Made by a program: the position numbers and the translations under genes | NCBI GenBank assembly: GCA_029261065.1 | Contig: JAJDCB010000009.1 | Span: 1-33,624, forward strand | DNA: 33,624 bases | DNA from: Candidatus Omnitrophota bacterium | GTDB taxonomy: Bacteria > Omnitrophota > Gorgyraeia > Zapsychrales > Zapsychraceae | Reading direction: 5' to 3' | The notes under the pieces: generated by a model | The model's input: the letters and a program-made list of their open reading frames with translations, nothing else | Told to the model about the DNA's origin: nothing | Database searches by the model: none | In this document: positions 5,518 through 29,277 of the stretch, in pieces | Position numbering within the stretch: position 1 is the first letter of the stretch | Layout: each line of letters begins with the position of its first letter

Positions 5518-7881
5518 TTATAACTTTTGAGCTATCGATTCTATTTCGTAAGCTTCGATGATATCGCCAACCTTGTATTTATCAAATCCTTCTAATGTGA
5601 TACCGCATTCCATTCCTTCATTAACATCTTTGACATCTTCTTTAAATCGCTTTAAAGAAGAAATTTTTCCAGTATGAACAACTTCATCTTCACGCATAAT
5701 ATCCACACTTGCCTTACGATGAACTTTTCCCTTCGTGACATAACAACCAGCTACAAATCCTGAACGAGAAAGCTTAAATACTTCGCGGATTTCGATACGA
5801 CTTATAAATTTTTTGTTTACCTTCGCATCAAGCAATCCTTCTAAAGCATTTCGCATATCGTTGACGGCATCATATATAATGCGATATTCGCGGATATCAA
5901 CGGGATCTTTCTCAAGTTCTTCTTTTGCTCTTGGACCAATACCGACATGAAAAGCAATAATAATAGCATTAGAGGCCACGGCCAATAAAACATCTGAGGC
6001 ATTAACATCACCTACCCCAACGTGAATAAATCTAACCTTAACTCTGTCGCTTGGAATTTTTTCTAAAGAGTCTTTAAGCGCCTCAAGAGATCCTTGCACG
6101 TCAGCTTTAACAATGACATTTAACTCTTTGATGGATCCTTCTTGAATTTGTGAATACAAATCTTCTAATGTTAATTTTTGTGTGGCATACAAACGCTTGT
6201 CTTTTATCTCTTGCGTACGACGTACTGTAATCTCACGCGCCTGCTTTTCATCATCAACAACATAATACATCTCACCAGCCTCAGGAACACCAGGCAAGCC
6301 TAAGACTTCTACAGGCATTGAAGGTCCTGCTTCTTTGACTAATCTTTTATGATCATCAAACATAGCCTTAATTTTTCCATAATGAGGACCAACAACAACC
6401 ATATCACTTTCTTTTAAGGTTCCACTTTGAACAATAAATGTCGCTACAACACCTTTTCCCTGACTAAGATGAGCCTCTACAACAAGGCCTAACGACTTTT
6501 TATCTGCGTTTGCCTTTAGTTCTAACATCTCCGATTCTAACAAAATCATTTCTAAGAGTTTATCAACCCCTTCACCTGTCATAGCCGAAACACCCACACA
6601 CACTGTATTTCCACCCCAATCTTCGGACGCTAGATTAAGTTCTGAGAGCTGCTTTTTGACTTTGTCTAAGTCTGCATTCGGACGATCAATTTTATTTAAA
6701 GCAACAATAATAGGAACGTCAGCAGCCAAAGCATGATCAATCGCTTCTTTGGTTTGAGGCATGATACCTTCATCAGCGGCAACAACCAGCACAACTAAAT
6801 CTGTAATGTGTGCCCCTCGTCGTCTCATCGCAGTAAAGGCTTCGTGACCAGGCGTATCTAAAAACGTAATCCGTCCCCGTTCAATATTGACCGAATACGC
6901 GCCCATATGCTGAGTGATCCCACCATGTTCTTTATCTGTAACTTTTGATTTTCTAATTTTATCTAAAAGAGAAGTTTTACCGTGATCAACATGCCCCATA
7001 AACGTAACAACAGGTGCGCGAGAGGTAAGAAGACTCTCATCTTCCTCTTCCTGTTTGTGGCCCTCAATGATCTGCTCTTCTTGCGTTTTAATTTTAGCTA
7101 GATTAAAACCAAACTCAGGAGTTAGCTTTTCAACGACATCACGATCTAAAGCTTGATTGATATGAGCAAAAACACCCATTTTCATTAAAAATTTAAGAAC
7201 AGCGCTCGATCTTTGACCAATCTTAAGACTAAAGTCTTTTACAGTAATCGGAACTTTAATTTCAATATCTGGTAAACTTTCATCGCGTGGAACACTTGAC
7301 TCTTGATCAGAAGAACCTGCCGTATCATCACTGGTTATACCACCAGATTGTGGTACTTGTTGCGCTGCTGTAGCACTGCTCTCATCAGAAGCTCCAGGTG
7401 TCGCATGAGTTCTATTTGGAGTAGATTTTCTACGTTTTCGAGCTAAAGGCTTTAAAGTTATAACCGGCTCATTACTAATTTTTTTCTTTTTACGAATAGG
7501 TTCTTTGGGCTTTTCTTCTTTATCTTTCGGGGTGGCCGTTTTTTTCGTTGTTGCCTTAGCTTCTACTACTGTCTTTTCTTTCGTATCAGTTGCTTTAGCA
7601 GCTTTTTTCTTAGTGGTCGCTTTCTTAACAGGTTCTTTTGCTTTCTCTTTTTTATCAACAAGCGTTTCTTTCTTAACAGCCTTTTTCTTGGTTGTAACCG
7701 TTGATGCTTCCTTTTTTGTTGTTGAGTCCTTACCTTTCTTATATTCACTTCGTAATACAGAAATAACAACAGCATTAAGCTCTTGCTTACTGTCGATGGA
7801 CTTAAGTTTAAGAGCTTTAAGCGTTGTTAAAATATCTTTACTTGTGGTATTTAATTCTTTAGCTAATTCTGATACTTTCAT
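5518..7881 (-). CDS. infB: Translation initiation factor IF-2
   Basis: IF-2 is the GTPase that places initiator fMet-tRNA on the ribosome and promotes subunit joining. The 787-residue protein opens with an IF2_N module (MKVSELAKELN, 1-50). A low-complexity Lys/Ala/Thr-rich linker follows (about 50-150), then a Ser-rich stretch and a second IF2_N-like region (about 210-255). The G domain has G1 GHVDHGKT (296-303), GGITQHMGA (320-328), G3 DTPGHEAF (342-349), G4 NKID (396-399) and SAMTGEG. Domains II to IV complete a normal C-terminal half ending in YKVGDIIEAYEIE. It lies 23 bases after nusA in the classic rimP-nusA-infB order. The antisense strand of the linker gives a long hydrophobic open frame that is only a compositional shadow. 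Confidence 0.98.
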   Translation of the reverse strand: MKVSELAKELNTTSKDILTTLKALKLKSIDSKQELNAVVISVLRSEYKKGKDSTTKKEASTVTTKKKAVKKETLVDKKEKAKEPVKKATTKKKAAKATDTKEKTVVEAKATTKKTATPKDKEEKPKEPIRKKKKISNEPVITLKPLARKRRKSTPNRTHATPGASDESSATAAQQVPQSGGITSDDTAGSSDQESSVPRDESLPDIEIKVPITVKDFSLKIGQRSSAVLKFLMKMGVFAHINQALDRDVVEKLTPEFGFNLAKIKTQEEQIIEGHKQEEEDESLLTSRAPVVTFMGHVDHGKTSLLDKIRKSKVTDKEHGGITQHMGAYSVNIERGRITFLDTPGHEAFTAMRRRGAHITDLVVLVVAADEGIMPQTKEAIDHALAADVPIIVALNKIDRPNADLDKVKKQLSELNLASEDWGGNTVCVGVSAMTGEGVDKLLEMILLESEMLELKANADKKSLGLVVEAHLSQGKGVVATFIVQSGTLKESDMVVVGPHYGKIKAMFDDHKRLVKEAGPSMPVEVLGLPGVPEAGEMYYVVDDEKQAREITVRRTQEIKDKRLYATQKLTLEDLYSQIQEGSIKELNVIVKADVQGSLEALKDSLEKIPSDRVKVRFIHVGVGDVNASDVLLAVASNAIIIAFHVGIGPRAKEELEKDPVDIREYRIIYDAVNDMRNALEGLLDAKVNKKFISRIEIREVFKLSRSGFVAGCYVTKGKVHRKASVDIMREDEVVHTGKISSLKRFKEDVKDVNEGMECGITLEGFDKYKVGDIIEAYEIESIAQKL

Positions 7882-7904
7882 AAAATAACTTATCTTTCTT
7901 TTAT

Positions 7905-9128
7905 CTATAGTTCGTTAACTTCATCAATCAACTTCTGAGCTTTAACTTTGCCCAGTCCTTTGATTTGCGTTAATTCCTTCACACTTGATTTCGCAATTTT
8001 TTCTATGGAATCATACCCTGCATTGGTCAATTCAACAAGCAATTTTTCTCCTACAGAAGATAAGCTTGCTAAAGGACTATCTGCAGGAGCTTCCTCTGAA
8101 GCCTTCTCCTCTTGTGGGCTCTCTTTATCCGCTTGGGCTTTTTCTTCAGCTTCGACCTCTTCTAGCATTTCCTTTTGGAGCTCTTCCCATTGCTCAAAGG
8201 AGAATATATCTAATTCCCAACCAACCAATTGACTGGCTAACCTTACATTCTGGCCGTGACGACCAATGGCTAGTGAAAGTTGATCATCAGCGACAATGAT
8301 ATTCGCTTTTTTATCGTCATTATCCACCTGAATTTGTGAAATTTCAGCAGGAGATAACGCGGCTTGAATATATTCCTTAATATCAGCAGCATAACGGACA
8401 ATGTCGATTTTCTCCCCTTGAAGTTCTGAGACAATATTTTTAACACGAGAGCCTCTCATCCCTACACAAGCTCCAACGCAATCTACCCTTTCATCTTTAG
8501 AGTAAACAGCTATTTTTGTGCGCTCTCCAACATCACGCGCAATAGCTTTAATTTCAACAATTCCTTCAAAAATCTCTGGAACTTCTAGTTGAAAAAGGCG
8601 CTTAACAAAATTTTTATGTCCACGTGAAAGAATAACTTGCGGGCCTTTATTCTCCCGTTTAACATCCAACACATAGGCGCGTACTCGATCACCTTGTTGA
8701 AATTCTTCTTTGTTAGATTGTTCTTTTCTTGGAATAAAACCTTCTGTCTTGCCAAGATCTATAATGATGTTGCCACGCTCAAATCGATACACGCTACCAC
8801 TAATAATCTCGCCAATACGAGCCTGATACTCCGTATAAACAACGTCCTTCTCAGCCTCTCTAATTTTTTGTATCACAACTTGTTTTGCCGTTTGCGCCGC
8901 GATACGACCAAACTCACTTGATCGAATTTCAGTCTCGCCGGCATAAGCTGTTAGTTTCCCTGACAAAGGATCTAGAACAACCCGCACATCTTCTTCTTTA
9001 TCTACTGTCCATAACTTTTTAGCCGCTGATGCAACCGCAGCCTCAACCGCCTCTATAAGAATTTCTTTGGCTATTCCCTTATCTCGTTCTAACTGTTCCA
9101 ATATTCCCATCAATTCACTACTTGGCAT
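7905..9128 (-). CDS. nusA: Transcription termination/antitermination factor NusA
   Basis: NusA binds RNA polymerase and nascent RNA to control pausing, termination and antitermination. The 407-residue protein contains the N-terminal polymerase-binding domain (1-105), an S1 domain (about 108-180, beginning GEIISGSVYRFERGNIIIDLG), and tandem KH domains with VDCVGACVGMRGSRVKNI and LAIGRHGQNVRLASQL. It ends with an acidic Glu/Ala-rich linker (about 315-350) and a C-terminal helix-hairpin-helix repeat with IKGLGKVKAQKLIDEV. The acidic tail before the HhH segment may act as a flexible tether; that is inference. The ATG at 9128 has a good AGGAAGGG Shine-Dalgarno upstream. It lies 18 bases after rimP. 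Confidence 0.97.
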   Translation of the reverse strand: MPSSELMGILEQLERDKGIAKEILIEAVEAAVASAAKKLWTVDKEEDVRVVLDPLSGKLTAYAGETEIRSSEFGRIAAQTAKQVVIQKIREAEKDVVYTEYQARIGEIISGSVYRFERGNIIIDLGKTEGFIPRKEQSNKEEFQQGDRVRAYVLDVKRENKGPQVILSRGHKNFVKRLFQLEVPEIFEGIVEIKAIARDVGERTKIAVYSKDERVDCVGACVGMRGSRVKNIVSELQGEKIDIVRYAADIKEYIQAALSPAEISQIQVDNDDKKANIIVADDQLSLAIGRHGQNVRLASQLVGWELDIFSFEQWEELQKEMLEEVEAEEKAQADKESPQEEKASEEAPADSPLASLSSVGEKLLVELTNAGYDSIEKIAKSSVKELTQIKGLGKVKAQKLIDEVNEL

Positions 9129-9146
9129 CTCATTACCCTTCCTTTT

Positions 9147-9602
9147 TTATATTTCTTGAATCGCTTTATTAATCGTTTTAAACGGAATTTCTATTTCGAC
9201 TTCCTTTACCTTGATAACAACACATTCATCTAAAGATTTTACAATCACACCAAGATGTTCAAGTTTATCATTTATTTTTTCATTCAAATAAAACCGTACT
9301 TCTCGAGAAACCACTCTATTAAAATCTTTGGTGTTTGTTAACGGTCTATCTATTCCCGGTGAAGAAACTTCAATGCTATACGGACTATCAATAATACTGT
9401 TTTCTTCTAAATATCGAGAAATTTGTTTATTAACCGAGCTACATTCATCGGCAATTATTCCACCAAGCGGCCTGTCAGCAATAATCTGAACTAAGATGAA
9501 TTCATTTATTGGCTTTAAATTAAACTCAACTAATTCCAGCTTATCTTCTTCCAACACCTTTAATAAAAAAGGCTCAATTTGTTCTCTAATCTCTTCCAAC
9601 AT
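9147..9602 (-). CDS. rimP: Ribosome maturation factor RimP
   Basis: RimP assists maturation of the 30S subunit. The 151-residue protein is normal in size. It carries the conserved block SPYSIEVSSPGIDRPL in its N-terminal half (roughly residues 93-108) and a C-terminal Sm-like beta-barrel segment (GVIVKSLDECVVIKVKEVEIEIPF). The start ATG at 9602 is only two bases after the proS stop. No strong Shine-Dalgarno is visible, so translation is probably coupled to proS. nusA and infB follow, the standard operon order in most bacteria. Confidence 0.95.
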   Translation of the reverse strand: MLEEIREQIEPFLLKVLEEDKLELVEFNLKPINEFILVQIIADRPLGGIIADECSSVNKQISRYLEENSIIDSPYSIEVSSPGIDRPLTNTKDFNRVVSREVRFYLNEKINDKLEHLGVIVKSLDECVVIKVKEVEIEIPFKTINKAIQEI

Positions 9603-9604
9603 TT

Positions 9605-10858
9605 TTATGAGACCAAAGCTTCCATGGCTTGTTCTATTTTGACAAGTTTAATCTCAGATGTCCTACGACACTTAATTTCAACCTCGCCATTAGCCAAATT
9701 TTTCTTACCCACAATCAATCTTTTTGGAATACCGATAAGATCAGCATCATTAAACTTAAATCCCGCCGTCTCATCACGATCATCAACTAAGACATCAAAA
9801 CCTTTAGCGGTTAACTCTTGATAAAATCTATCAGCCAACTCATTTATCTCTGCAGACTTATCTCCACCTGCAATAGGAATAATTTCGATATCAAATGGAG
9901 AAACGCATTCTGGCCAAATAATTCCTTTTTTGTCGTTATTGGTTTCGATGATCGCAGCAATCACGCGGCTCACGCCAATGCCATAACAACCCATAATCAT
10001 AGGCTTCTGCTGACCATCTTCATCAATAAAAAAAGCTTCCTGAGCGGCACTATATTTTGTTCCCAACTGAAAAATATGACCTAATTCAATAGCAACTTGT
10101 TTTTCTAACTTACCTTTCTTACAAGAAGGACAATCTCGACCTTCCACCTGAGTTTCGCCGGCTCCTTCATAATACTGACATGAAGGACAATGATAAATCG
10201 TATCTTCGCCAATAGCTGCAGGCACTAAAAATTCATGCGAAACATCGCCTCCCATGGCACCAGAATCAGCTGCAATAATTGCAACATCAAGCCCACAACG
10301 TTTAAAAACATTTTTATAAGCTTGGTACATACGATCATAATTCTTTTTCAAACCTTCAACATCACGATCAAAACTATAAGCATCTTTCATGATAAATTCA
10401 CAGGCGCGAACGATGCCAAAACGTGTTCGTAGCTCATCTCTAAATTTGGTTTGAATCTGATAAAGACAAACAGGTAACTGCCTATAAGATTTGACAAAAC
10501 TTCCCACTAAATCCGTAATAATTTCTTCATGCGTAGGCCCTAAACACATCTCACGACCACGATTATCTTTAAACTTAATCATGACCTCATCTAAAACTTG
10601 ATCCCGTCCGGTCTTCTTCCATAATTCTATAGGGTGCAGAACTGGTAAAAACAATTCTGTTGCACCGGCCTCTTGCATTTCGTCTCGAATAATATCTTCA
10701 ATTTTCTTTAAGACCTTAAGTCCTAAGGGTAAATAAGAATACACACCCGAGGTAAGCATATGAACAAGCCCTGCTCTTAACGAAAGTTGATGACTAATAG
10801 CCTCCGCTCCAATAGGAACATCTTTTAACGTTGGAATAAAATATTTCGACCAATACAT
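9605..10858 (-). CDS. proS: Prolyl-tRNA synthetase lacking the INS editing domain
   Basis: This class II synthetase charges tRNA-Pro. At 417 residues it is about 150 shorter than the usual bacterial type (about 570). Motif 1, motif 2 (FRDELRTRFGIVRACEFIMKD, split at 139-159), the GHIFQLGTKYS block (260-270), motif 3 (GCYGIGVSR, 290-298) and the anticodon-binding domain are all intact. Between motifs 2 and 3, where the roughly 180-residue INS domain that hydrolyses Ala-tRNA-Pro normally sits, only about 20 residues remain. The flanking CxxC pairs (C224/C227 and C243/C246), normally on either side of INS, are brought close together and could form a small zinc-ribbon-like knob (inference). INS-less ProRS enzymes are known and usually rely on separate ProXp/YbaK-type editors. 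The gene lies 5 bases after cpaF and 2 before rimP. Confidence 0.95.
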   Translation of the reverse strand: MYWSKYFIPTLKDVPIGAEAISHQLSLRAGLVHMLTSGVYSYLPLGLKVLKKIEDIIRDEMQEAGATELFLPVLHPIELWKKTGRDQVLDEVMIKFKDNRGREMCLGPTHEEIITDLVGSFVKSYRQLPVCLYQIQTKFRDELRTRFGIVRACEFIMKDAYSFDRDVEGLKKNYDRMYQAYKNVFKRCGLDVAIIAADSGAMGGDVSHEFLVPAAIGEDTIYHCPSCQYYEGAGETQVEGRDCPSCKKGKLEKQVAIELGHIFQLGTKYSAAQEAFFIDEDGQQKPMIMGCYGIGVSRVIAAIIETNNDKKGIIWPECVSPFDIEIIPIAGGDKSAEINELADRFYQELTAKGFDVLVDDRDETAGFKFNDADLIGIPKRLIVGKKNLANGEVEIKCRRTSEIKLVKIEQAMEALVS

Positions 10859-10863
10859 AATGT

Positions 10864-12132
10864 TTACTCTGTAAAAAACCCTTGTGGGACATCAATCATT
10901 CGTTTAGCAAATTTCGAATAAAAACTAGGAAATTTACGGTTAAAAGCCCAATCACCCAAGACATCCCCCTCTGCGGAAGCTCCTTGTTGTTCAAAATAAA
11001 AAATGTCATTCATAGCAACTCTTCCAGTATTTTCATCATGAATGATATCAGAGACTGCCGTTACTCTTCTTTTTCCATCTGGAAATAACTCGATATGAAC
11101 AATGATATCAATGGCACGTGCGACCTGTTTACGAATCTCATCCGTACTTAAACGAATACCTGTCATAAGCATCATCGTAACCATGCGATTAAAACAATCT
11201 TCTGTTGTCTCAGCGTGAACGATCGCAAGCGATCCGCTGTGTCCACTACTAATAGATTGAATAAGATCCAAAATTTCCTCACCACGAACCTCACCTACAA
11301 TAATACGATCAGGACGCATCCGTAGGGAGTTAACAAAAAGTTCCGCCATCGTAATTTCCCCTTTACCTTCAATGTTCGAAGGCTTGGTGCAAAGCGTAAC
11401 CACATGATCCTGAAGTAAACGCAACTCAGGGGTATCTTCAATCGTTATAATTCGTTCATGGGAGGGGATGTGTCTAGAGAACACATTAAGAGCTGTTGTT
11501 TTACCAGCCCCAGTAGAACCACAAAAAACTACATTAAATTTGGCTTTCATCGCAAGAATCAAGAGAGTTGCAATATTTTTATCAAGCATTCTTAAATCCA
11601 ACAAGTCATCTACCGTACCAATATCATCCTTAAACTTTCTAATCGTCATAACAGGACCAATGAGCGAACAAGGAGGCAAAATAACATTAACACGTGACCC
11701 ATCGGCCATAGAGAAGTCAACATAAGGAGACGATTCATCCACGCGTTTATTTGTTCCCGAACTGGCTAAAATTTTCTGAATAGTATGATTAAGATGCCTG
11801 TTATCATCAAAATGAACATCTGTCTTTGTGATACGACCTTTTTTCTGAATAAAAATTTCGTTATACCCATTAATCATGATTTCCGTAATATCCTTATCTT
11901 CCATCAAAGGACGCATAGGACCTAAACTAATCACCGCCGAAACAATATTTCTAATTAACATCGCTCGTTGATCAACCGTAATCTTTAAATTCTGAGAATT
12001 ACACAGCTCAGCAATAGCATTATCAACGAATTCTCTTAACTGATCTTCTTTTAAAACGTCTTTAGCCTTAAGAAAATCCGTATTATTTAATAAATACCTA
12101 TTAACTTCTTCGATTGTATTATCATCTAACAT
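10864..12132 (-). CDS. cpaF: CpaF/TadA-type secretion ATPase (orphan)
   Basis: The 422-residue protein is a VirB11/PilT-superfamily hexameric ATPase of the CpaF (Tad pilus / type II-IV secretion) branch. It has an N-terminal all-alpha domain with the CpaF-typical [19 protein letters not shown] (71-89). This is followed by Walker [10 protein letters not shown] (205-213), the Asp box [10 protein letters not shown] (228-237), Walker [10 protein letters not shown] (276-284) and the His box [12 protein letters not shown] (296-307). It also has a C-terminal extension beyond the usual core (about 385-422). In Tad loci it powers pilus assembly beside cpaE, tadB and tadC, none of which is present here. 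It sits between rseP and proS with a good GGGAGG Shine-Dalgarno at its ATG. The partner platform proteins must be elsewhere, or the protein has another role. Family is certain; substrate is unknown. Confidence 0.9.
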
Positions 12133-12183
12133 GATTCTATTCCTCCCATGTCATAAGGCTTTTTAAAAGCTATTACGTAGCTT

Positions 12184-13572
12184 CTAATTAACCTTTTTGA
12201 TCAGGTTTCCTATCGATTCAAAAAGACCTATGCGGTCAAAATCTATATAAAAAATAAATAAGGCTAAAGCAATAATGGCCACTAATCCTGTATAAGAGAT
12301 AAGCTCTTCAATTTTTGCCGGTAATTCTTTTCCACGAACTTTCTCAATGGCTAACAAAAACAAATGCCCTCCATCCAAAGGAATGACTGGCATTAAATTA
12401 AATATGGCAAGACTGGCACTTACAAGGCCAAGAATATAGATAAAATGATTTAAACCCATCTCAGCGGCCGTTTTGACAACAGAAAAAATCATGACAGGCC
12501 CGCCCACACCATCGCGTGCAGCCATAGAACCTGTTAACATCCAATAAACGGCTTTACAGGTCATAACCGTTATATCGGCAATTTCATCATAAGACATTTT
12601 TAATGACGTTAAAAAATTAAATTTGTATGTCACTAGATCTGTCGTGGGTCCTACTGCGATAAAATGTAAAACTTTCTTCTCACCCTTATCTTCCACTTCC
12701 CTTTTCTTCGCCACAACCGTCTTTGTTAAAATTTGGTCATCACGCTCAATTTTAAGCTCAATATTCTCTGTTGCAGATTGCGTGATATTTTCATGTAAGG
12801 TTATCCAATCATTAACACCCACTTGATTAACCTCAACAATACGATCGCCTTCCTTTATTTCCGCTAGGTCAGCAGGACCTTCCTTTTCAACAAAACCAAC
12901 AACATTTGAATAAGGACTCACACCTATAGTTCTAACTTCTCTTATTTGCCCAAATAAATTACTTCGTTCTTCTACCTTTGGTTGAATTTGTTTTTCTAAA
13001 ATTTTTCCATCGCGCAATACTTTGAATTGAATTGTGTCTTTATTTGAATTTGCAATATTAATTTTTAACTTTGACCACCCATAAATCTTTTTAGAATCGA
13101 TTTCTAAAATAGTATCGTTAATCATCAATCCAGCTGTGTGTGCTGGATCGCCTTTTATCAAGCCACCTACTTTAGCTTCATCGACTTGCATGCCCAACAT
13201 AAACAAAAACACAAAACAAACATAAGCTAAAACAAAGTTGATCAAAGGGCCATTAAATATAATAAGGGCTCTTTGCCCAACTGTTTTAGAAAAGAACTCA
13301 TCCTTCGCGCCCTTACATTTAGATCGCTCATCCCCTGCCATGCGAACAAAACCACCTAAGGGGAGCAGTTTTAACATATAATTTGTACCATTATAAACTT
13401 TAGAATAAAGTGTTGGTCCAAATCCTATAGCAAACTCATCAACCCTGACGCCACATTTCTTTGCTGTAATAAAATGACCCCATTCATGGACGGAGATCAA
13501 TATCCCTAAAAAAATAGCAAAAACGATAGTTCCTTGTAGATTTGAAAAAAGTGATTCTATCATAGTAGTCAT
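12184..13572 (-). CDS. rseP: Site-2 zinc metalloprotease RseP
   Basis: RseP is a membrane-embedded protease that cleaves anti-sigma factors and signal-peptide remnants within the bilayer. The 462-residue protein matches E. coli RseP in length. It has HEWGH in the first transmembrane helix (29-33), two tandem PDZ-like domains (about 125-210 and 215-300), and the second active-site motif N-L-M-P-V-I-P-L-D-G (392-401). Hydrophobic helices lie near residues 15-30, 100-120, 375-395 and 430-450. It lies in the conserved uppS-cdsA-dxr-rseP order. No strong Shine-Dalgarno is seen at the ATG (13572); a second in-frame ATG lies three codons in. No anti-sigma factor gene is adjacent, so its substrate is unknown here. 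Confidence 0.95.
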   Translation of the reverse strand: MTTMIESLFSNLQGTIVFAIFLGILISVHEWGHFITAKKCGVRVDEFAIGFGPTLYSKVYNGTNYMLKLLPLGGFVRMAGDERSKCKGAKDEFFSKTVGQRALIIFNGPLINFVLAYVCFVFLFMLGMQVDEAKVGGLIKGDPAHTAGLMINDTILEIDSKKIYGWSKLKINIANSNKDTIQFKVLRDGKILEKQIQPKVEERSNLFGQIREVRTIGVSPYSNVVGFVEKEGPADLAEIKEGDRIVEVNQVGVNDWITLHENITQSATENIELKIERDDQILTKTVVAKKREVEDKGEKKVLHFIAVGPTTDLVTYKFNFLTSLKMSYDEIADITVMTCKAVYWMLTGSMAARDGVGGPVMIFSVVKTAAEMGLNHFIYILGLVSASLAIFNLMPVIPLDGGHLFLLAIEKVRGKELPAKIEELISYTGLVAIIALALFIFYIDFDRIGLFESIGNLIKKVN

Positions 13573-13630
13573 TACTGACTTAATTTCGGCATTCGAAAAA
13601 AGTCATTCCTTTCCTAAAATTAGGAGTTTT

Positions 13631-14785
13631 TTAAAGACTTATTAATGCCTGCGCTTCTTCTCGCGACCATTGATCAGCATTATTTATATCTTTCAAACTT
13701 GGATTTTTAACTATTTTATGTTTTTTTACAATTTTCTCAACAATTTTGTAAATCTTTGTAAATTTTATTTTACCTTCTAAATAAGCATCAACAGCTACTT
13801 CATCAGAACCATTAAGGACGCTTGGTAATGTCCCACCTTTCTTGGCCACATGAAAAGCTAAGCTCAAAGAAGGAAATTTTTTCAGATTTGGCTTTTGAAA
13901 TGTTAGACTTTTAAGTTTAACAAAATCCAATCCCTTTAATCCAGTGGACAATCGGTGAGGATAAGATAACGCATATTGTATCGGGATCCTCATATCCGTA
14001 ATTCCTAATTGTGCTAAAATAGATCCATCACAAAATTCCACCATCGAATGGATAATGGCCTCTGGATGGACCACCACTTCAATATCACTTATTTTAAGAT
14101 CAAACAATCTTTGCGCTTCAATGACTTCAAATCCTTTATTCATCAACATCGCCGAATCAACCGTAATTTTTGCTCCCATCTTCCAACGGGGATGCTTAAG
14201 AATCTCAGCGACTCTTAATTGATCAAACTTATCCTCATCAACATCTAATAAAGCGCCACCGGAAGCTGTAAGATGAATCTTTTTAATATCATTGCCCTCA
14301 CGTGCCTTAAGACATTGAAAAATCGCGCTTTGCTCGCTATCAATGGGAATAATCTGAGCTTCATATTTCTTAGCCTCACTCATAAGAATTTCACCTGCAA
14401 CAACCAAAGCCTCTTTGTTGGCAGGAGCAATCATTTTCCCAGCACGAACAGCACTTAAAAACGGTTTTAAGGCAGCACTTCCTCTCATGGCGATAACGAC
14501 AATATCAACATCTTTTAAACTCGCCAAATATTCCAAATCATTGTTTACGCTTAATATTTTTGTGCGATTGCCCGCCACATTCTTTTTTAAATAACTCATC
14601 CCCTTATCACTCACAGCAACATATGAGGGCTGAAATATTTTTATCTGTTTTTCAAGGAGCTTAAAATTATTATAGGCTGACAACCCAACGACTTTAAACT
14701 GCTTTGAATGCCGTTGAATAATTTTTAAGGTATTAATACCAATAGAACCCGTGGATCCTAAAATAACAATTTTTTTACATCTCAT
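13631..14785 (-). CDS. dxr: 1-deoxy-D-xylulose 5-phosphate reductoisomerase
   Basis: DXR converts DXP to methylerythritol 4-phosphate with NADPH, the committed step of the MEP isoprenoid pathway. From the ATG at 14785 the protein has 384 residues. It shows the nucleotide-binding ILGSTGSIG (8-16), ANKEALVVAGE, the metal/substrate segment IPIDSEQSAIFQCL, LTASGGAL, HPRWKMGAKITVDSAMLMNK and VVHPEAIIHSMVEF. An open frame extends 14 codons upstream into cdsA, but MRCKKIVILGSTG is the family start. It supplies precursors for the UppS product made two genes upstream. The enzyme is cytoplasmic and complete. Confidence 0.97.
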   Translation of the reverse strand: MRCKKIVILGSTGSIGINTLKIIQRHSKQFKVVGLSAYNNFKLLEKQIKIFQPSYVAVSDKGMSYLKKNVAGNRTKILSVNNDLEYLASLKDVDIVVIAMRGSAALKPFLSAVRAGKMIAPANKEALVVAGEILMSEAKKYEAQIIPIDSEQSAIFQCLKAREGNDIKKIHLTASGGALLDVDEDKFDQLRVAEILKHPRWKMGAKITVDSAMLMNKGFEVIEAQRLFDLKISDIEVVVHPEAIIHSMVEFCDGSILAQLGITDMRIPIQYALSYPHRLSTGLKGLDFVKLKSLTFQKPNLKKFPSLSLAFHVAKKGGTLPSVLNGSDEVAVDAYLEGKIKFTKIYKIVEKIVKKHKIVKNPSLKDINNADQWSREEAQALISL

Positions 14786-14799
14786 AAGAGTATCAAACG

Positions 14800-15618
14800 T
14801 TATCCATGAACAAGATAACTCAACCAAAAATAAAATGCCGGTGCTGAAAACAATAAACTATCAATACTATCCAGAACACCACCTAAAGCCGGCAACATTT
14901 TTCCTGAATCTTTCACCTGACAATCTCTTTTAATTAAAGATTCTGATATATCGCCCAACTGTCCTAAACCACCAAAAAAAGCACCAAAAAATAATAACTG
15001 CCAAACAGCCAAATTCAGCTCAGCCGGCAAAAATGATTGCGTTAATACAGCAGTGACACTACTAAAAACAAAACTACCAAGACTTCCCTCAATAGTTTTA
15101 TTAGGACTAACACGTGGCAACAAAGGATGTTTTCCATAACGACTACCAATTAGTAAAGCCCCAATATCGCCCATCTTTGTAACAAGCAAAATAAAAGCCA
15201 ACAATTTCATTCCTTCAACACCAGGAGCAAAAAAACGAATTTTTATCAAATAGCTGAATAACCAAGAAACATAGAGAACACCAAATAATGTTGTCGATAT
15301 CCCAACGATGGCATTCTCATTATCTTTACGTGCTAATTGCAGTATAAAAATAGTAACAAAAACTAAAACAATAAATAAAAGCTCCCATCGCTTTGTCGGT
15401 TCAAATTGCAAATAAGTTGCAATGGGAATTAAGACACCAATGGCAATGCCTGTGTAGGAGTAAATTGGAATTCCTTTTTTCTTAACCAAATAAAAGAATT
15501 CGTATAACCCCCCGATAATCAAAGCCAGCAAAACAATAAAAAAAGCAACCTTACTTAAGACCGCAAAGGCCGAAAGGGTAATCATAACTGCTGAGCTAAA
15601 AAAACGATCTTTATTCAT
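14800..15618 (-). CDS. cdsA: Phosphatidate cytidylyltransferase (CDP-diglyceride synthase)
   Basis: CdsA makes CDP-diacylglycerol from phosphatidic acid and CTP, feeding phospholipid synthesis. The 272-residue protein is very hydrophobic with about seven or eight membrane segments. The C-terminal signature runs from S227 to D253 as SLIKRDCQVKDSGKMLPA followed by LGGVLDSIDS. The K-R and K-D elements and both later Asp residues (D250, D253) are kept. Two positions of the common proteobacterial pattern differ: Leu245 where His is usual and Ser251 where Arg is usual. Such variants exist in other diderm phyla as far as I recall, so I treat it as a functional enzyme. The start is an ATG at 15618. 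It lies 65 bases after uppS. Confidence 0.93.
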   Translation of the reverse strand: MNKDRFFSSAVMITLSAFAVLSKVAFFIVLLALIIGGLYEFFYLVKKKGIPIYSYTGIAIGVLIPIATYLQFEPTKRWELLFIVLVFVTIFILQLARKDNENAIVGISTTLFGVLYVSWLFSYLIKIRFFAPGVEGMKLLAFILLVTKMGDIGALLIGSRYGKHPLLPRVSPNKTIEGSLGSFVFSSVTAVLTQSFLPAELNLAVWQLLFFGAFFGGLGQLGDISESLIKRDCQVKDSGKMLPALGGVLDSIDSLLFSAPAFYFWLSYLVHG

Positions 15619-15683
15619 TTTACTGCCATTTTTTAAACTACATAGGTTACGGCTAACTTCGCCCTTCTTGTAAATGACAAATA

Positions 15684-16415
15684 CTATTGAGCGGTTGTTG
15701 AGTGCCCAAAACGCCTATCCCGGTTTTGATAATCAATTATCGCTTTATTAAATTCTTCAACCGAAAAATCAGGCCAATATATATCAGTAAAATAAAGTTC
15801 TGCATATGAAAGTTGCCAGAGTAGGAAGTTACTTATTCGCTTTTCTCCTGAAGTGCGGATAAGTAAATCCGGATCAGGCAAATTTTGTGTATATAAATTA
15901 CGACTCACTAACTCTTCATTAATATCTTCAACATTAACAACACCCTCTTGAACTTTTTTCGAAATATCACGAATAGCATCAACAATTTCTAAACGCGAAC
16001 CATAATTAAACGCGAGATTGATAATCATACCTTCATTATCTTTGGTTTCTTCATTTGCAACATGCATAGCTTTAATGACGGATTCAGGTATTCGTTCACG
16101 TCGACCAATAATTTGAAATTTCGTATTTAAGTTTTTAAGTTTTTTTAATTTAGCCTGTAAAACAGCTGTGATTGTTTCCATTAAGCTTCTTACTTCATGT
16201 TCCGGGCGATTCCAATTCTCAGTTGAGAAGGTAAAAAGTGTCATAACTTTTACACCAAGTTCAGATGAATAATCAATGAGCTCTTCGACACGTTTGACAC
16301 CAGCAATGTGACCTTCTGTGCGCGAAAGATTTCTTTCTTTAGCCCAACGCCCATTACCATCCATGATAATAGCAACATGCTTTGGAATTCTCGTTTTGTC
16401 GATATCAATATCCAT
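15684..16415 (-). CDS. uppS: Undecaprenyl diphosphate synthase (cis-prenyltransferase)
   Basis: UppS condenses isopentenyl diphosphates into undecaprenyl diphosphate, the lipid carrier for peptidoglycan and O-antigen. The 243-residue protein has the active-site segment HVAIIMDGNGRWAK (13-26) with catalytic D19, FTFSTENWNRP, DLLIRTSGEKRISNFLLWQ (about 188-206) and the distal FTDIYWPDF. It is first in the uppS-cdsA-dxr-rseP group and lies downstream of the intrinsic terminator at 16453-16483. No convincing promoter is seen in the roughly 45 bases between that terminator and the ATG, and the Shine-Dalgarno is weak (AAGG about 11 bases away). Expression may depend on read-through or on a promoter type I cannot recognise. 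frr and pyrH, often just upstream in other bacteria, are absent. Confidence 0.97.
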   Translation of the reverse strand: MDIDIDKTRIPKHVAIIMDGNGRWAKERNLSRTEGHIAGVKRVEELIDYSSELGVKVMTLFTFSTENWNRPEHEVRSLMETITAVLQAKLKKLKNLNTKFQIIGRRERIPESVIKAMHVANEETKDNEGMIINLAFNYGSRLEIVDAIRDISKKVQEGVVNVEDINEELVSRNLYTQNLPDPDLLIRTSGEKRISNFLLWQLSYAELYFTDIYWPDFSVEEFNKAIIDYQNRDRRFGHSTTAQ

Positions 16416-16452
16416 AAACTTTATCGCCTTAAAATTTTTTGAAAACTTCTAT

Positions 16453-16483
16453 ATAAATAAAATGGGGGATTATGAATCCCCCA
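16453..16483 (-). terminator. Rho-independent terminator after the OmpA-like/coiled-coil unit
   Basis: On the minus strand a perfect 9-bp stem, TGGGGGATT paired with AATCCCCCA, closes a 3-base CAT loop (16463-16483) and is followed by TTTTATTTAT (16453-16462). It is the only textbook intrinsic terminator I found in the window. It separates the coiled-coil gene (stop at 16530) from uppS (start at 16415). Confidence 0.85.
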
Positions 16484-16529
16484 CCGTTTAGCTCCATAGA
16501 AAATTTTAAAGGACTTAGCTTTACTACAT

Positions 16530-16904
16530 TTAAAGCTCTTCGCCTTCAGGCCGAAAAATGCTAGTCCCAGCGGTCATGGCTTGCAAATCTTTGATCCTTG
16601 CGTCTAACTCTTTATTCATTATCGTTATTTTATCAAGCCTTGATTTTAAATCTGCATTTATACTATTAACTTGTTCCAATGACTTCTCTAACGTCTCTTT
16701 CTTACTTTTTGACCTTGTTAACTCCGTATCTAAAGAACCTACTTTCGCATTGGCTATCGTTAAATTTTCCTCAGCCGTCATACGAATAAACCGCTCTTTA
16801 TTTAAATCATCCTGAGCTACCATCGCATTTTGATTATAATGAACAGCCAAACCACAACTTAATGCTAATAACACAATAATCAAAATTATTAAAACAATTC
16901 TCAC
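16530..16904 (-). CDS. Small membrane-anchored coiled-coil protein, unknown function
   Basis: I do not recognise a named family. The protein of about 124 residues has an N-terminal hydrophobic segment (VRIVLIILIIVLLALSCGLAV). It continues as a charged, heptad-like alpha-helical region (about residues 30-108: KVGSLDTELTRSKSKKETLE and onward) typical of a coiled coil, and ends with a short tail FRPEGEEL. A Cys after LALS could be a weak lipobox, so it is either a membrane-anchored protein or a lipoprotein. A perfect AGGAGG at 16912-16917 is only 1 base from an ATG at 16910 but 7 bases from the GTG at 16904, so GTG is the likelier start. It follows the OmpA-like lipoprotein by 41 bases and ends before the terminator. 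It probably works with that protein at the envelope. Confidence 0.75.
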   Translation of the reverse strand: MRIVLIILIIVLLALSCGLAVHYNQNAMVAQDDLNKERFIRMTAEENLTIANAKVGSLDTELTRSKSKKETLEKSLEQVNSINADLKSRLDKITIMNKELDARIKDLQAMTAGTSIFRPEGEEL

Positions 16905-16911
16905 GGACATG

Positions 16912-16917
16912 CCTCCT
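16912..16917 (-). promoter_or_regulatory. Perfect Shine-Dalgarno indicating a GTG start for the coiled-coil gene
   Basis: AGGAGG on the minus strand is followed after 1 base by ATG (16910), too close to be used efficiently, and after 7 bases by an in-frame GTG (16904). The spacing selects the GTG. Confidence 0.65.
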
Positions 16918-16945
16918 GTTAAACTGTTAGTAAACCCAACAAGCT

Positions 16946-17557
16946 CTATCGACCTTCTTTCATTGTTTTAGGTAAGATAACAATTTCAACACGACGATTC
17001 TTCTGTCGCCCCTCTTTTGCCGCATTACTGGCTACAGGGTGATGCTCACCAAAGCCTGTTGCAGACAAACGAATAGGATCTACTTTTTTACCGTTCTCAA
17101 GATAATGTAGAACACTCAAGGCTCTTGCTGTAGAAAGCTCCCAATTTGATTTCCAACCAGAATATTTGATAGGGACGTTATCTGTATGTCCTTCGACACC
17201 AACATTGTGATCACGTACCGTTGTATTTAAAACGCGTGCGACTCGATCCAACTTCCCCAAAGAATCTTTTCTTAACTCAGATTTCCCAGAAGCGAACAAA
17301 ACCTCAGCCACAAAAGTTATAACAAGTCCCTTTTCTAGGTTTTCAACTACAATAGAACCGTCTTTAATTTCACTTTTTAGCCGCTCTTCTAATTCCAGCT
17401 TGGCTTTTTCTAAATCTGTCAATTCACGTTTTAATTTTGAAATCTTTTCAACGTCAACACGCCTTCCCTTTTGAAAAACAAGAGTACAGCCACTAAACAT
17501 AAAACTTAGGCAAACAATTCCAATTATTGATGTTAGAAATGACCTTCTGTGACGCAT
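16946..17557 (-). CDS. OmpA/MotB-like peptidoglycan-binding lipoprotein
   Basis: The 203-residue protein begins with a positively charged signal peptide (MRHRRSFLTSIIGIVCLSFM) and a lipobox-like FSGC with Cys24, indicating a lipoprotein. Residues 35-66 form a short charged coiled-coil. The C-terminal OmpA-like domain (about 75-195) contains VGVEGHTDNVPI (119-130), NWELSTARALSVLHYL (138-153), the GFGEHHP turn and KNRRVEIVI, the conserved non-covalent peptidoglycan-binding residues. The sequence style is closer to MotB-type than to Pal. It has no flagellar neighbours and no membrane channel segment, so a stator role is not supported. AAGGAGG lies 5 bases before the ATG at 17557. A promoter at 17651-17679 drives it. 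It probably tethers an envelope membrane to the cell wall (inference). Confidence 0.88.
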   Translation of the reverse strand: MRHRRSFLTSIIGIVCLSFMFSGCTLVFQKGRRVDVEKISKLKRELTDLEKAKLELEERLKSEIKDGSIVVENLEKGLVITFVAEVLFASGKSELRKDSLGKLDRVARVLNTTVRDHNVGVEGHTDNVPIKYSGWKSNWELSTARALSVLHYLENGKKVDPIRLSATGFGEHHPVASNAAKEGRQKNRRVEIVILPKTMKEGR

Positions 17558-17650
17558 AATGGCCTCCTTATAGTGATACAAATTTAAGCCAAAAATAAAC
17601 TTATTCAGAAATAGTTGTCTTACGGTGAGTTACAACGAAGACTGTATGAC

Positions 17651-17679
17651 ACATTAACATAGCGTACTTTTAAAGTCAA
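17651..17679 (-). promoter_or_regulatory. Sigma70-type promoter for the OmpA-like lipoprotein unit
   Basis: On the minus strand TTGACT (17674-17679) is separated by 17 bases from TAATGT (17651-17656), which is preceded by the extended -10 dinucleotide TG. Transcription would start near 17644, giving a leader of roughly 85 bases before the lipoprotein ATG. Confidence 0.7.
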
Positions 17680-17746
17680 GAAAATTATAGGTACTTATGC
17701 ACCCAATAATATAGTCTTTGATAATTATATTATTTATATAAGTGTC

Positions 17747-17767
17747 TATATAACTATTAGTTATATA
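17747..17767. repeat. 21-bp perfect palindrome in AT-rich intergenic DNA
   Basis: Two 10-base arms, TATATAACTA and TAGTTATATA, are perfect inverted repeats around a single central base. It lies about 70 bases upstream of the promoter at 17651-17679 and about 75 bases downstream of purA. It has no GC-rich stem or T-run, so it is not an intrinsic terminator. It could be an operator for a dimeric regulator, or a chance product of the very AT-rich context. Apart from this site, the promoter and the lipoprotein RBS, I see nothing in the 284-base gap 17558-17841. Confidence 0.6.
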
Positions 17768-17841
17768 TCTTCATTGATGCCAGGATAAATTGAAAAAAGG
17801 AAGACATCAAAGCGATTTTGGAAGGAATTTACAGTGTAAAA

Positions 17842-19140
<1,299 letters not shown>

Positions 19141-20724
19141 TTATACTTTTAACAATTTAACAAGCGTAATATCTTCTGTATTCTTTAGCTCTTCAATCGT
19201 TGTCTCAGCTACTTCGCTATCAACATTGACAACACTAATGGCAACACCATCTTGAGACTCACGACCCAAAGTAATGCCAGCAATATTAACTTTCGCTTTT
19301 GCTAAAATTGTTCCAACAGCCCCAACAAGTCCAGGCTTATCGTTATTTGCAATAAACAACATATGACCATCAGGGATCGCCTCGACATAAACATCGTTAA
19401 TTTTGACAATACGAGGTTTATTATTACTAGAAAGCGTTCCCCAAATTACAAACGGATCTTTATCCGTATTAACTTCTACTTTGATAGAGTTGACAAATTC
19501 AACTGTTTGGCTAGATTTTACCTCTTCAATATTAATAGCCCGGTCTTTAGCCATATCCAAAGCATTAATAAAATTAACAGAGTCACCCAGTATGGGCTTT
19601 AACAAACCATTAACTAATGACAATGTAATCGGCGCAACTTTATACGCATTAACAACACCACTATAGCTAACTTTAACACCATTAATACGCCCTTCAATTA
19701 ATTGACCAGCAAACTTACCCATCCGTAACCCCAAATTAATATAAGGCTCTAAAATTTTATACGCAGCGGCATCCACCGACGGAAAATTGGCTGCATTAAT
19801 AATCCCTTTCCCTAGCAATGCATCACGAACAGTTTCAGCAATTTCGATGGCTACATTCACTTGAGCTTCTTTTGTTGAGGCTCCAAGATGAGGTGTTGTA
19901 ATGCAATTATCAAATTTTAGAAGACCACAATTTACATCTAATGGCTCCTTCTCATAAACATCGAGCGCACAACCAGCAATTTTTTTATTCTCCAAAGCAC
20001 GAAGAAGAGCTTCTTCATCTAATCTTCCACCGCGCGCACAATTAATAATACGCGCATTATCTTTCATTAAGGCAAACTCGTTATCGGAAACCATATTTCT
20101 TGTCTCAGAACTTTTAGGAATATGTATGGTGATATAGTCTGAGGCTTTAAACAACTCCTCTAACTCAACCATTTTGACACCTTTCTGATCCGCTACTTCT
20201 AAAGATAAATAAGGGTCATAAACAATGACATCCATCCCAAAGGTTTTGGCAAACTTACCAACAGTTGAACCAATACGACCAAAACCGACAACGCCTAACG
20301 TTTTGCCATGTAATTCAACACCACTAAATTTGGAGCGATCCCAGCGACCAGCTTTCATAGACGCACACGCCTGAGGAATATTTCGTGAAAGAGCTAAAAT
20401 CATACTCATCGTATGTTCAGCTGTTGAGGTTGTGTTCCCAGCTGGTGTATTCATCGCAACAATACCTTTACGAGTTGCAGCTTTTAAATCAATATTATCT
20501 AATCCTACACCCGCGCGCCCTATAACCTTAAGTTTATCGGCCGCATCAATAATCTGCTCAGTGACATTGGTCGCACTTCGAATAATCAAAGCATCATATT
20601 CTTTAATGATTCCCTTTAATTCCTCTGGAGATAAACCTTCCTTGCAATCAACCTCAAAGCCATCTACTTTTTTTAAAATATCAATACCGGCTTGTGCTAA
20701 TTTGTCACTCACTAATATCTTCAT
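19141..20724 (-). CDS. serA: D-3-phosphoglycerate dehydrogenase, long form with ACT domain
   Basis: SerA oxidises 3-phosphoglycerate to 3-phosphohydroxypyruvate, opening serine synthesis. The 527-residue protein is the long type. It has a catalytic domain (1-95 and 285-310) around a Rossmann domain with GFGRIG (147-152) and the NAD-selecting Asp170, an intervening domain (about 320-450), and a C-terminal ACT domain (about 455-527, NDKPGLVGAVGTILAKAKVN). Catalytic Arg231 (in NCARGG), Glu260 (YEKEP) and His279 (TTPHLGAST) are in place. The ACT and intervening domains suggest allosteric control by serine or a related effector. GGAG lies 8 bases before the ATG. The class V aminotransferase just upstream is the natural next-step enzyme. 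Confidence 0.97.
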   Translation of the reverse strand: MKILVSDKLAQAGIDILKKVDGFEVDCKEGLSPEELKGIIKEYDALIIRSATNVTEQIIDAADKLKVIGRAGVGLDNIDLKAATRKGIVAMNTPAGNTTSTAEHTMSMILALSRNIPQACASMKAGRWDRSKFSGVELHGKTLGVVGFGRIGSTVGKFAKTFGMDVIVYDPYLSLEVADQKGVKMVELEELFKASDYITIHIPKSSETRNMVSDNEFALMKDNARIINCARGGRLDEEALLRALENKKIAGCALDVYEKEPLDVNCGLLKFDNCITTPHLGASTKEAQVNVAIEIAETVRDALLGKGIINAANFPSVDAAAYKILEPYINLGLRMGKFAGQLIEGRINGVKVSYSGVVNAYKVAPITLSLVNGLLKPILGDSVNFINALDMAKDRAINIEEVKSSQTVEFVNSIKVEVNTDKDPFVIWGTLSSNNKPRIVKINDVYVEAIPDGHMLFIANNDKPGLVGAVGTILAKAKVNIAGITLGRESQDGVAISVVNVDSEVAETTIEELKNTEDITLVKLLKV

Positions 20725-20789
20725 TCCCTTAACTCCATACTTATCCCTTAAGCTTTAAAAACGGCCTAGGGCACATGTTATCATGATAA

Positions 20790-21932
20790 TTATTCTTGAT
20801 TAAAAACCTTTTGCGCGGCACTCAATCCAGCACCAAGTTCAAAAGAATGACCGAGTTGAGTAAGAACCTTCTCAAGGCAAGCAATGCCGGTGAGAATATC
20901 ATATTCGTCAATGCATCCCATATGAGCAATACGAATAATTTTCCCCTTTAACTCCGCTTGACCACCAGCAACGGAAACCCCATAAGTATCTCTCATAACT
21001 TTAACAAGCTTATTACCATCGACAGTTGAAGGAAGACCAATCGCCGTTAAGACGTTTGATCGACACGACTCATCAGGATACAAAGATAACCCCAGAGCCA
21101 ATGCTGCTTGCTGTGTTCCACGGGCTAATCGGGCATAATGAGCAAATAAATTCTCAAGCCCCTCTTTCCTCATAAGCGTTAAGCTTTCATTTAAAGCCCG
21201 AACAATACCAATTGCTGGTGTAAAAGGCGTATCTGTTTTCTCAAATGCTTTTTTGGATTTGCGAAGATCAAAATAATAGCGAGGAGATTTGGATTCCTCA
21301 ATCAATTTAAAAGCTTTATCACTCACTGAAACAAATGCTAGGCCAGGTGGCAACATAAAACCTTTATGTGACGCTGATGCCACCGCATCAACACCCCAAG
21401 CATCCATTTTTAAATCAATTACACCTAAACCACTGACGGCATCAACAACACACACGGCCTGTGTTTTCTGAACTTCCTGAGCTACCGCTTGAACATCTGT
21501 GACAACACCTGTCGATGTTTCTGAAAGTGTAATGAAAACAGCTTTTGCATCTTTATGCTCTTCTAAAGCTTGCTTTATTTCTTTTGCCGTGACCGCTTGC
21601 CCCCAAGGAACTTTAATAACATGAGCATTAATACCATAAGCTTGACACAACTCTGTCCACCGTTCTCCAAACTTCCCACCTTCTACTGTTATCGCCTTAT
21701 CTCCAGGAGATAAGATGTTGGCCACAAGTGCTTCCATCGCACCTGTCCCTGAAGCTGGTATTAAATATATATCATTCTTCGTTTGAAAAACATACTGCAG
21801 CCCCTCAATAGCTTCTTTTATATCTTCCTGAAACTGAGGTGTGCGGTGATGGATAATAGGCTCGCCTAACGCTTGACAAACACTCGGTGGAATTTGCGTT
21901 GGGCCCGGTGTTAACAACAAATTTCTTTTCAT
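20790..21932 (-). CDS. Class V aminotransferase, probable phosphoserine aminotransferase role
   Basis: This is a PLP-dependent aminotransferase of 380 residues in the serine-pyruvate / alanine-glyoxylate class. It begins with the diagnostic LLLTPGPTQIPPSV (5-18) and has the PLP-phosphate loop ASGTGAMEAL (60-69). The PLP-binding segment VVDAVSGLG (162-170) is followed by Schiff-base Lys190 in SASHKGFMLPPG. The substrate cannot be read from the sequence. Because it lies 65 bases upstream of serA in the same direction and no serC is seen, the best inference is transamination of phosphohydroxypyruvate to phosphoserine, as proposed for similar serA-linked enzymes in thermophiles and methanogens. 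Alanine-glyoxylate or serine-glyoxylate activity remains possible. Such proteins are often misannotated as a soluble hydrogenase subunit. Confidence 0.85.
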   Translation of the reverse strand: MKRNLLLTPGPTQIPPSVCQALGEPIIHHRTPQFQEDIKEAIEGLQYVFQTKNDIYLIPASGTGAMEALVANILSPGDKAITVEGGKFGERWTELCQAYGINAHVIKVPWGQAVTAKEIKQALEEHKDAKAVFITLSETSTGVVTDVQAVAQEVQKTQAVCVVDAVSGLGVIDLKMDAWGVDAVASASHKGFMLPPGLAFVSVSDKAFKLIEESKSPRYYFDLRKSKKAFEKTDTPFTPAIGIVRALNESLTLMRKEGLENLFAHYARLARGTQQAALALGLSLYPDESCRSNVLTAIGLPSTVDGNKLVKVMRDTYGVSVAGGQAELKGKIIRIAHMGCIDEYDILTGIACLEKVLTQLGHSFELGAGLSAAQKVFNQE

Positions 21933-21960
21933 GTTCCTATCCCTTGTTTACAAATATTAA

Positions 21961-22572: not shown

Positions 22573-22573
22573 A

Positions 22574-23461: not shown

Positions 23462-23487
23462 AACAACACATACCCCCTAAAAAATGA

Positions 23488-24216: not shown

Positions 24217-24218
24217 TA

Positions 24219-28105: not shown

Positions 28106-28146
28106 TTTTGAAACTCCCTTCTCTAATATTAAAACCTAAAATAAAA

Positions 28147-29172: not shown

Positions 29173-29248
29173 TTGATTCAACTTCTAAGTTTAAGTGTAT
29201 TAACATTTTAGAGTGAAAACAGCCTTTTTCTATAAAACAAAAGAGATG

Positions 29249-29277
29249 ATTTTATCATAGTTTAAATATTGCGTCAA
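29249..29277 (-). promoter_or_regulatory. Sigma70-type promoter for the heptose/KDO/Lpt operon
   Basis: On the minus strand TTGACG (29272-29277) is spaced 17 bases from TAAAAT (29249-29254), which has the extended -10 element TG one base upstream. The promoter overlaps the stop codon of the upstream glycosyltransferase gene. Start of transcription near 29242 would leave about 70 bases before the hldA ATG. Confidence 0.7.

Follow-up and report, generated by a model that had tools for sequence, protein, structure and literature searches.

What does a CpaF/TadA-type ATPase do when its gene stands alone, outside any tad cluster, in an operon of housekeeping genes? The window, which is the whole stretch of 33,624 nucleotides analysed from a Candidatus Omnitrophota genome, contains a gene run on the reverse strand in the order uppS–cdsA–dxr–rseP–cpaF–proS–rimP–nusA–infB, with short gaps. 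The features discussed below are as follows.

5518..9602, reverse strand: genes that we take to be rimP, nusA, and infB (positions; conserved order)
9605..10858, reverse strand: proS, downstream neighbour (PRK09194, 578 bits, over the cut-off)
10864..12132, reverse strand: stand-alone CpaF/TadA-type ATPase of the A1 type, 422 amino acids (ORF, PF00437, CpaF structures, and tree)
11209..11241, reverse strand: altered His-box segment, residues 298–308 (equivalents of T380 replaced by I and N384 by E, H382 kept)
11320..11322, reverse strand: codon of R271, equivalent of the inter-subunit arginine finger R347, retained
11497..11520, reverse strand: Walker A, GSTGAGKT, residues 205–212
11710..11712, reverse strand: codon of S141, equivalent of the arginine finger R217 of Caulobacter crescentus CpaF (alignment)
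12141..12147, reverse strand: ribosome-binding-like GGGAGGA, 8 bases from its end to the ATG (read from the sequence)
12184..13572, reverse strand: rseP (site-2 protease), upstream neighbour (TIGR00054, 292 bits, over the cut-off)
13631..16415, reverse strand: dxr, assigned by family search, with genes that are presumably uppS and cdsA (positions; conserved order)
16461..16485, reverse strand: terminator-like hairpin of 11 pairs with a T-rich tail, upstream of uppS (consensus scan only)

An intact CpaF-type gene between rseP and proS

The cpaF ORF is intact and starts with ATG. Its protein matched PF00437 over residues 71–345 (158 bits in a profile search), and its best solved relatives were the C. 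crescentus CpaF chains 8rkd, 8rjf, and 9e24 (phmmer, E ~1e-86), to which it is 36–37% identical over ~410 residues. The AlphaFold model (mean pLDDT 86.8) also aligned best with CpaF (Foldseek and VIA-align; Z 36.1, rmsd 10.9, 418 residues aligned), and the next family was archaeal GspE (VIA-align, Z 28.3). A sequence-only reading of the window had described a complete CpaF-type ATPase, and the core residues of the Walker A motif, Asp box, Walker B motif, and His box were indeed all found, but Ser replaces the arginine finger R217 and the context of the His box is altered. Because this finger is replaced, the protein, as judged from its sequence, is CpaF-type rather than a canonical CpaF. The N-terminal arm formed by the first ~79 residues of C. 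crescentus CpaF is absent as well; residue 14 of the window protein aligns with residue 93 of the 501-amino-acid CpaF, and residue 1 falls at ~80. The score with the TadA model TIGR03819 (263 bits) was below the curated cut-off of 373; this model does not discriminate here because a tad-encoded fusion protein of the same genome (320 bits) misses the cut-off as well. The VirB11 model TIGR02788 (215 bits against a cut-off of 250) and the PilT model TIGR01420 (56 bits against 319) were also missed.

The placement between rseP and proS was confirmed, with 51 bases between rseP and cpaF and 5 between cpaF and proS. The hairpin upstream of uppS is a possible operon boundary, and a promoter scan was uninformative (26 sites against 30 expected). 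Whole-genome profile searches with PF00437 and PF00482 returned no further match within the window; the claim that other Tad genes are lacking stands for the window, but not for the genome, which has a tad locus on contig C19. The ProS protein of the window (9605–10858) has 417 amino acids and aligns with the 559-amino-acid model in two stretches, which suggests that its central editing insert is missing. A 126-amino-acid protein at 16530–16910, between ompA and uppS, appears coiled-coil-like by eye and had no Pfam match; it stays beside ompA in part of the order.

The tad locus and other motors of the same genome

The tad locus on contig C19 was found by searching the assembly (2.71 Mb, 36 contigs, 95% complete) for tad genes, a check that the sequence-only reading had proposed. 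It encodes a peptidyl-prolyl isomerase, CpaB/RcpC, a secretin, a CpaE–CpaF fusion, TadB, and TadC, and also contains several short pilin-like ORFs. Two large ORFs, which we take to be TadG-like from their position, had no family match in a profile search. The fusion (723 amino acids, L031 1914–4085) joins a MinD/ParA-like domain to a CpaF domain with a complete ATPase domain. It shares with the window protein a Tad-type ATPase domain that is 39% identical, but differs from it in the MinD/ParA-like domain, the canonical arginine fingers, and its separate clade. Because the tad locus has its own fused ATPase, the window gene is a second one. Six double-domain GspF platforms are also encoded in this genome, each adjoining its own GspE/PilB gene, and the sole platform of the CpaF kind is TadB/TadC. 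The tad secretin (L031 4235–5899) carries a C-terminal TonB_C domain (PF03544, 53 bits). Within the tad locus, a 598-amino-acid ORF (L030 17555–19351) has no assigned function, and a 70-residue match to it recurs in the tad region of G206.

Conservation of the operon position in the order and class

The stand-alone gene was present in 50 of the 55 sampled genomes of the order (own genome included), with 56–75% identity. Four of the five genomes without it gave no ProS match, and in the fifth a contig start interrupts proS; the locus thus appears to be unassembled in these genomes. The place in the operon was conserved in every sampled relative of the order where the spot was readable. At the 30 loci examined in the order (own included), rseP and/or proS flanked the gene in all cases and both did so in 28, the two loci with a single flank ending at contig edges. 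The same gene order occurs in Ca. Zapsychrus exili, whose contig ends after cpaF, and in Ca. Omnitrophota RA.bin146 (phylum Omnitrophota). The description of the gene as an orphan was right, and its tight place in the operon is shared by its relatives.

Elsewhere in the class, the arrangement was mostly rseP–ispG–cpaF–proS, and some genomes had a second copy between proS and rimP. We refer to the copy upstream of proS as A1 and to the copy between proS and rimP as A2; among 75 mapped loci, 31 upstream and 8 downstream copies of at least 300 amino acids were readable. In the two-copy genomes, the copies flank proS at every locus that was read unbroken. G216 and G257 have A2 only. proS is gone from the spot in G083 and G252, and none of the usual neighbours was found around the A1 gene of G130. 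The suggested link to the neighbouring membrane protease RseP was not supported as a general explanation by this comparison of neighbourhoods, in which ispG mostly separates the two genes outside the order and a second copy lies between proS and rimP. Two stand-alone A-like CpaFs were seen in G097, G104, G108, G120, G127, G132, and G162, and also in G174, G185, G191, G202, G294, and G302.

Altogether, 17 genomes of the class have ispG–proS without cpaF. Twelve of them encode a fused Tad ATPase and show ispG–proS–rimP with an intact empty site (gaps of ≤83 bases for ispG–proS and ≤229 bases for proS–rimP), which means that Tad can do without the stand-alone gene. The five others, in which no Tad was detected, have looser surroundings, with 845 bases between ispG and proS in G112 and 396–3001 bases between proS and rimP. 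The five stand-alone CpaFs inspected from other classes of the phylum all sit in ordinary tad clusters; among the A1 and A2 copies read, none lay inside a tad cluster.

Arginine fingers and active-site residues

Residues are numbered here as in C. crescentus CpaF, with roles taken from the parts consulted of two papers (PMC11300603, PMC12019362). In all 35 A1 sequences compared, K287, T288, E312, E331, G334, R347, E357, R359, H382, and D208 were kept, as was the finger R223. These include the loop-8 residue D208 and two of the central-loop residues (E331 and G334), the third of which, G332, was kept in 34 of 35; among the A1 sequences read later, E331 is D in G116 and A in G130. By contrast, the R217 position was occupied by S, A, C, I, or P in all 35 A1 sequences and by R or K in all 106 tad-type CpaFs used for comparison (21 fusions, five sequences from other classes of the phylum, and 80 reference rows, four of them Omnitrophota fusion-type). 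T380 was likewise I or V in every A1 sequence and T in 104 of the 106 others, and T372 was S in 35 of 35 A1. N384 was E or D in the 21 sequences from the order and A in G040, and N in 105 of the 106 others.

When the 39 copies read at the locus were divided by position, all 31 upstream copies lacked R217 and had R347, whereas all eight downstream copies had R217 and carried H at R347, which the consulted part of PMC12019362 describes as a conserved residue of every type IV filament ATPase. Twenty more regions added 14 A1 and three A2 copies with the same finger signatures, and once G097 was added, the A2 signature was found in 12 of 12 A2 genomes. D208 was missing in seven of the eight downstream copies. 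The loss of R217 is not specific to A1, since the class has seven other additional CpaF-like proteins, from different clades, in which R217 is likewise absent and R347 present; five of these are encoded in tad-like clusters beside CpaB. Paired adjacent CpaF-type genes, both without R217, were observed in tad-like clusters with CpaB and secretin matches in G317:C144 (L339) and G290:C61 (L341). CpaF-like proteins of 356–386 amino acids that match only from model position ~56–69 were seen in G091:C9 (L336), G271:C127 (L338), G150:C17, G191:C1, and G237:C36, and those of G091 and G271 formed their own branch in a quick tree.

Ancestry and selection

The sequence-only reading had asked whether this CpaF forms a separate branch. 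In a tree of 97 rows, A1 and A2 formed one clade of their own (support 100/96) and the CpaE–CpaF fusions another (100/100), the latter grouping with CpaFs of Bdellovibrionota and Verrucomicrobiota/Kiritimatiellota (98/92); the rows were all CpaF-type, so that a placement outside CpaF could not show. From these separate, well-supported clades, the A1/A2 kind and the fusion kind look old and separate rather than products of a recent duplication. In a quick rerun of 68 rows with more copies, the fusions stayed apart, and A1 and A2 formed two groups that were not joined by a supported node.

A1 is under purifying selection, with dN/dS values of 0.047 (G120/G169) and 0.033 (G120/G132) at nearly saturated synonymous sites. 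The idea that A1 is more conserved than the tad-encoded CpaF proved false: mean identity was 60.3% for A1 and 68.3% for the CpaF part of the fusion, and A1 was lower in 78 of 78 genome pairs.

Co-occurrence with Tad genes

In a class sample of 236 genomes, 52 carriers of the stand-alone gene were counted after seven doubtful genomes were excluded (G237, G091, G136, G271, G317, G345, and G290). G136 was later shown to have A1, which gives 53 carriers, 50 with Tad, and the proteins of G091, G271, G317, G345, and G290 proved to be of other kinds. The A1 signature was confirmed in G083, G130, G242, and G252, which were first counted by score alone. A fused Tad ATPase was found in 67 of the 236 genomes, and the stand-alone gene was carried by 48 of these 67 against 4 of the 169 others (Fisher 1e-29, uncorrected for ancestry). 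The fusion or TadB was present in 49 of the 52 carriers, and the three without compare with 3.9 false absences expected from incompleteness; in the order, by our reading, 7 of 55 genomes lacked both, against 6.1 expected. The stand-alone gene is missing from all four genomes whose only cpaF is an unfused one beside TadB. A fifth genome, G315, has a similar protein and no TadB match, and G156 and G246 have TadB with no fusion or A copy detected. Five carriers with TadB or TadC had at first shown no fusion; one proved to have a truncated fusion, and in four the region was cut off or masked. G206 and G209 do have tad genes, the G206 fusion being truncated at a contig start, whereas the tad region is masked by N in G002 and cut off in G025 and G302. 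An apparent frame of 24,300 amino acids around TadB in G002 was an artefact of the masked stretch.

This association was compared with an InfB tree of 74 rows, 73 of which were used (G043 was dropped), in a sample deliberately enriched for discordant genomes, so that its counts are not frequencies. In its sampling, 4 of 80 queries gave no match, one genome had no usable InfB, and G198 (partial, at a contig start) was left out. Carriers and Tad-bearing genomes fell mostly in one half of the tree, with the exception of members of f24 and f33, and phylogenetically independent pairs, which were few and of little power, showed no correlation between gain or loss of the gene and gain or loss of Tad. 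The association of the gene with Tad is thus strong, yet shared ancestry may underlie it, and we do not accept raw co-occurrence as proof of functional coupling, considering that the Fisher test ignores ancestry. Ten carriers in the InfB sample had no detected Tad genes (10 rows, 8 changes). Examples of carriers in which Tad genes went undetected are G013, G120, G169, and G236. Incompleteness could explain these absences, although the sister pairs G120/G169 and G005/G010 may represent real losses of Tad. An earlier view that the gene outlived Tad through many independent losses was withdrawn, as the absences are close to the expectation from completeness.

Possible functions of the stand-alone CpaF

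The explanation that we favour, while holding it tentatively, is that the stand-alone CpaF serves the Tad pilus machine as an accessory motor ATPase, engaging TadB/TadC and dividing the labour with the fused motor. Co-expressed with housekeeping genes, it would dock on the TadB/TadC platform via the conserved loop-8 Asp and the central-loop residues, and it might either form an alternative ring by itself or share a mixed ring with the fusion's CpaF domain. Since it has neither the disordered N-terminal arm nor one of the nucleotide-sensing arginine fingers, its ATP cycling would be expected to differ, and labour might be shared with the fused motor, for example as extension versus retraction, as with PilB/PilT/PilU in type IVa pili. 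The fold and sequence of CpaF, the distinct clade, the retention of catalytic and platform residues, the prevalence of Tad among carriers, and the purifying selection all argue for the accessory motor, and the tad-like clusters of G317 and G290, with two CpaF-type genes side by side, indicate that more than one CpaF-type protein per Tad machine occurs. Against it stand the Tad-positive genomes with empty sites, the uncorrelated independent pairs, the location outside tad clusters, the lower conservation, and the carriers without Tad. Of the two roles first proposed for the gene, service to a dispersed pilus or another job, the pilus is thus the better supported, with the protein as an additional rather than the only motor.

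The location itself, which is the same housekeeping operon at every readable locus of the order and through much of the class, would also fit an independent cellular job tied to this translation and envelope operon, in which the CpaF ring serves as an ATP-driven machine without a pilus. The altered arginine finger and His-box context and the ten carriers without detected Tad genes point the same way. We nevertheless regard this job as unlikely, though deserving serious consideration: the 17 genomes without cpaF between ispG and proS mean that it is not generally essential, Tad is present in 49 of 52 carriers, the platform-contact residues are kept in nearly all, and no single partner follows the gene, as ispG is present or absent, a second copy may stand after proS, and proS is gone in G083 and G252. 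It is improbable that the protein is an extra motor of a type IVa pilus or type II secretion machine that docks on a GspF/PilC-type platform. Such platforms were found in all 11 carriers searched, including those without detected Tad, and the loop-8 and central-loop residues are described as universal among such motors in the consulted part of PMC11300603; however, each GspF platform adjoins its own GspE/PilB gene in this genome, G120, and G213, PilT-sized ATPases are also present, and sequence and fold are those of CpaF, not of PilT/PilB. The loss of one finger and the clean absences in part of the class would suit a nearly functionless relic of a tad locus that was duplicated long ago, held in place by the inertia of the operon, but purifying selection, the intact catalytic core, and the presence of the gene at every readable locus of the order make this very improbable. 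A relocated, sole ATPase of the tad locus, for which membership in the TadA/CpaF family could be cited, is scarcely credible and is refuted in this genome, where the tad locus proved to have a CpaF of its own, fused to CpaE, with a complete ATPase domain and in a separate clade.

The finger signatures of A1 and A2 also permit a bolder, and rather unlikely, version of the accessory motor, in which the CpaFs encoded on either side of proS assemble into a heteromeric Tad motor with complementary fingers. In the published geometry, R347 would act from the neighbouring subunit; that R217 would act from the subunit's own N-terminal domain is our own reading. In an alternating A1/A2 ring, the A2 sites would then have every finger and the A1 sites would lack both, giving three complete and three degenerate sites, like F1-ATPase. 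In lineages with A1 only, such as that of the window, A1 would instead pair with the fusion's CpaF domain and complete the sites of that domain with its R347. The seven extra CpaF-like proteins that lost R217 and kept R347 fit this pattern; alternatively, divergent CpaF copies may often lose R217. The heteromer is weakened by the existence of A1-only and A2-only genomes, by the loss of R217 in other extra copies, and by the consideration that, with about ten catalytic positions, chance alone could make two losses complementary.

Relation to known systems

The sampled order and much of its class have a second, separately descended, and catalytically equipped CpaF in one operon position, and a literature search of titles and the starts of abstracts returned nothing describing this stand-alone gene. 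Compared with C. crescentus CpaF/TadA (8rjf, 8rkd, and 9e24), the window protein shares Walker A, the Asp box, Walker B, the His of the His box, R223, R347, loop 8, and the central loop; it differs in the Ser at R217, in the replacement of T372, T380, and N384, and in the lack of the 79-residue arm, and its gene lies outside tad, in a housekeeping operon, and is additional to the tad-encoded CpaF. VirB11, TrbB, and FlaI belong to the same superfamily, but the window protein falls below the curated cut-offs and their structural Z is lower. PilT and PilU of type IVa retraction, although of another subfamily, provide a precedent for several motor paralogues per pilus, with PilU depending on another motor according to the consulted part of PMC6762196. 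A second Tad motor contrasts with the usual description of Tad pili as driven by a single bifunctional ATPase, given in the part of PMC12019362 consulted; whether bifunctionality holds across the family is stated as not known in that of PMC11300603. Genomes with two or three conserved CpaF-type proteins and complementary finger losses offer a natural setting for testing whether separate motors can take over extension and retraction.

The searched text of an Omnitrophota survey (PMC10066038) discusses Tad as a means of predation or attachment and reports two or three of TadB, TadC, and RcpA in 74 of 116 Velamenicoccia species; cpaF and TadA are not mentioned in that text, and the Tad motor is unnamed. 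The survey also gives the Tad coordinates of V. archaeovorus LiM as 12382–29832. In G127, the fusion lies at 14998–17154 and TadB at 27835–28662 of its contig, positions that fit the published interval, from which we infer that G127 is V. archaeovorus LiM and hence that the class studied here is Velamenicoccia. G127 has both A1 and A2 around proS, and with this assignment an existing enrichment, for which Tad expression has been reported, would be usable for tests.
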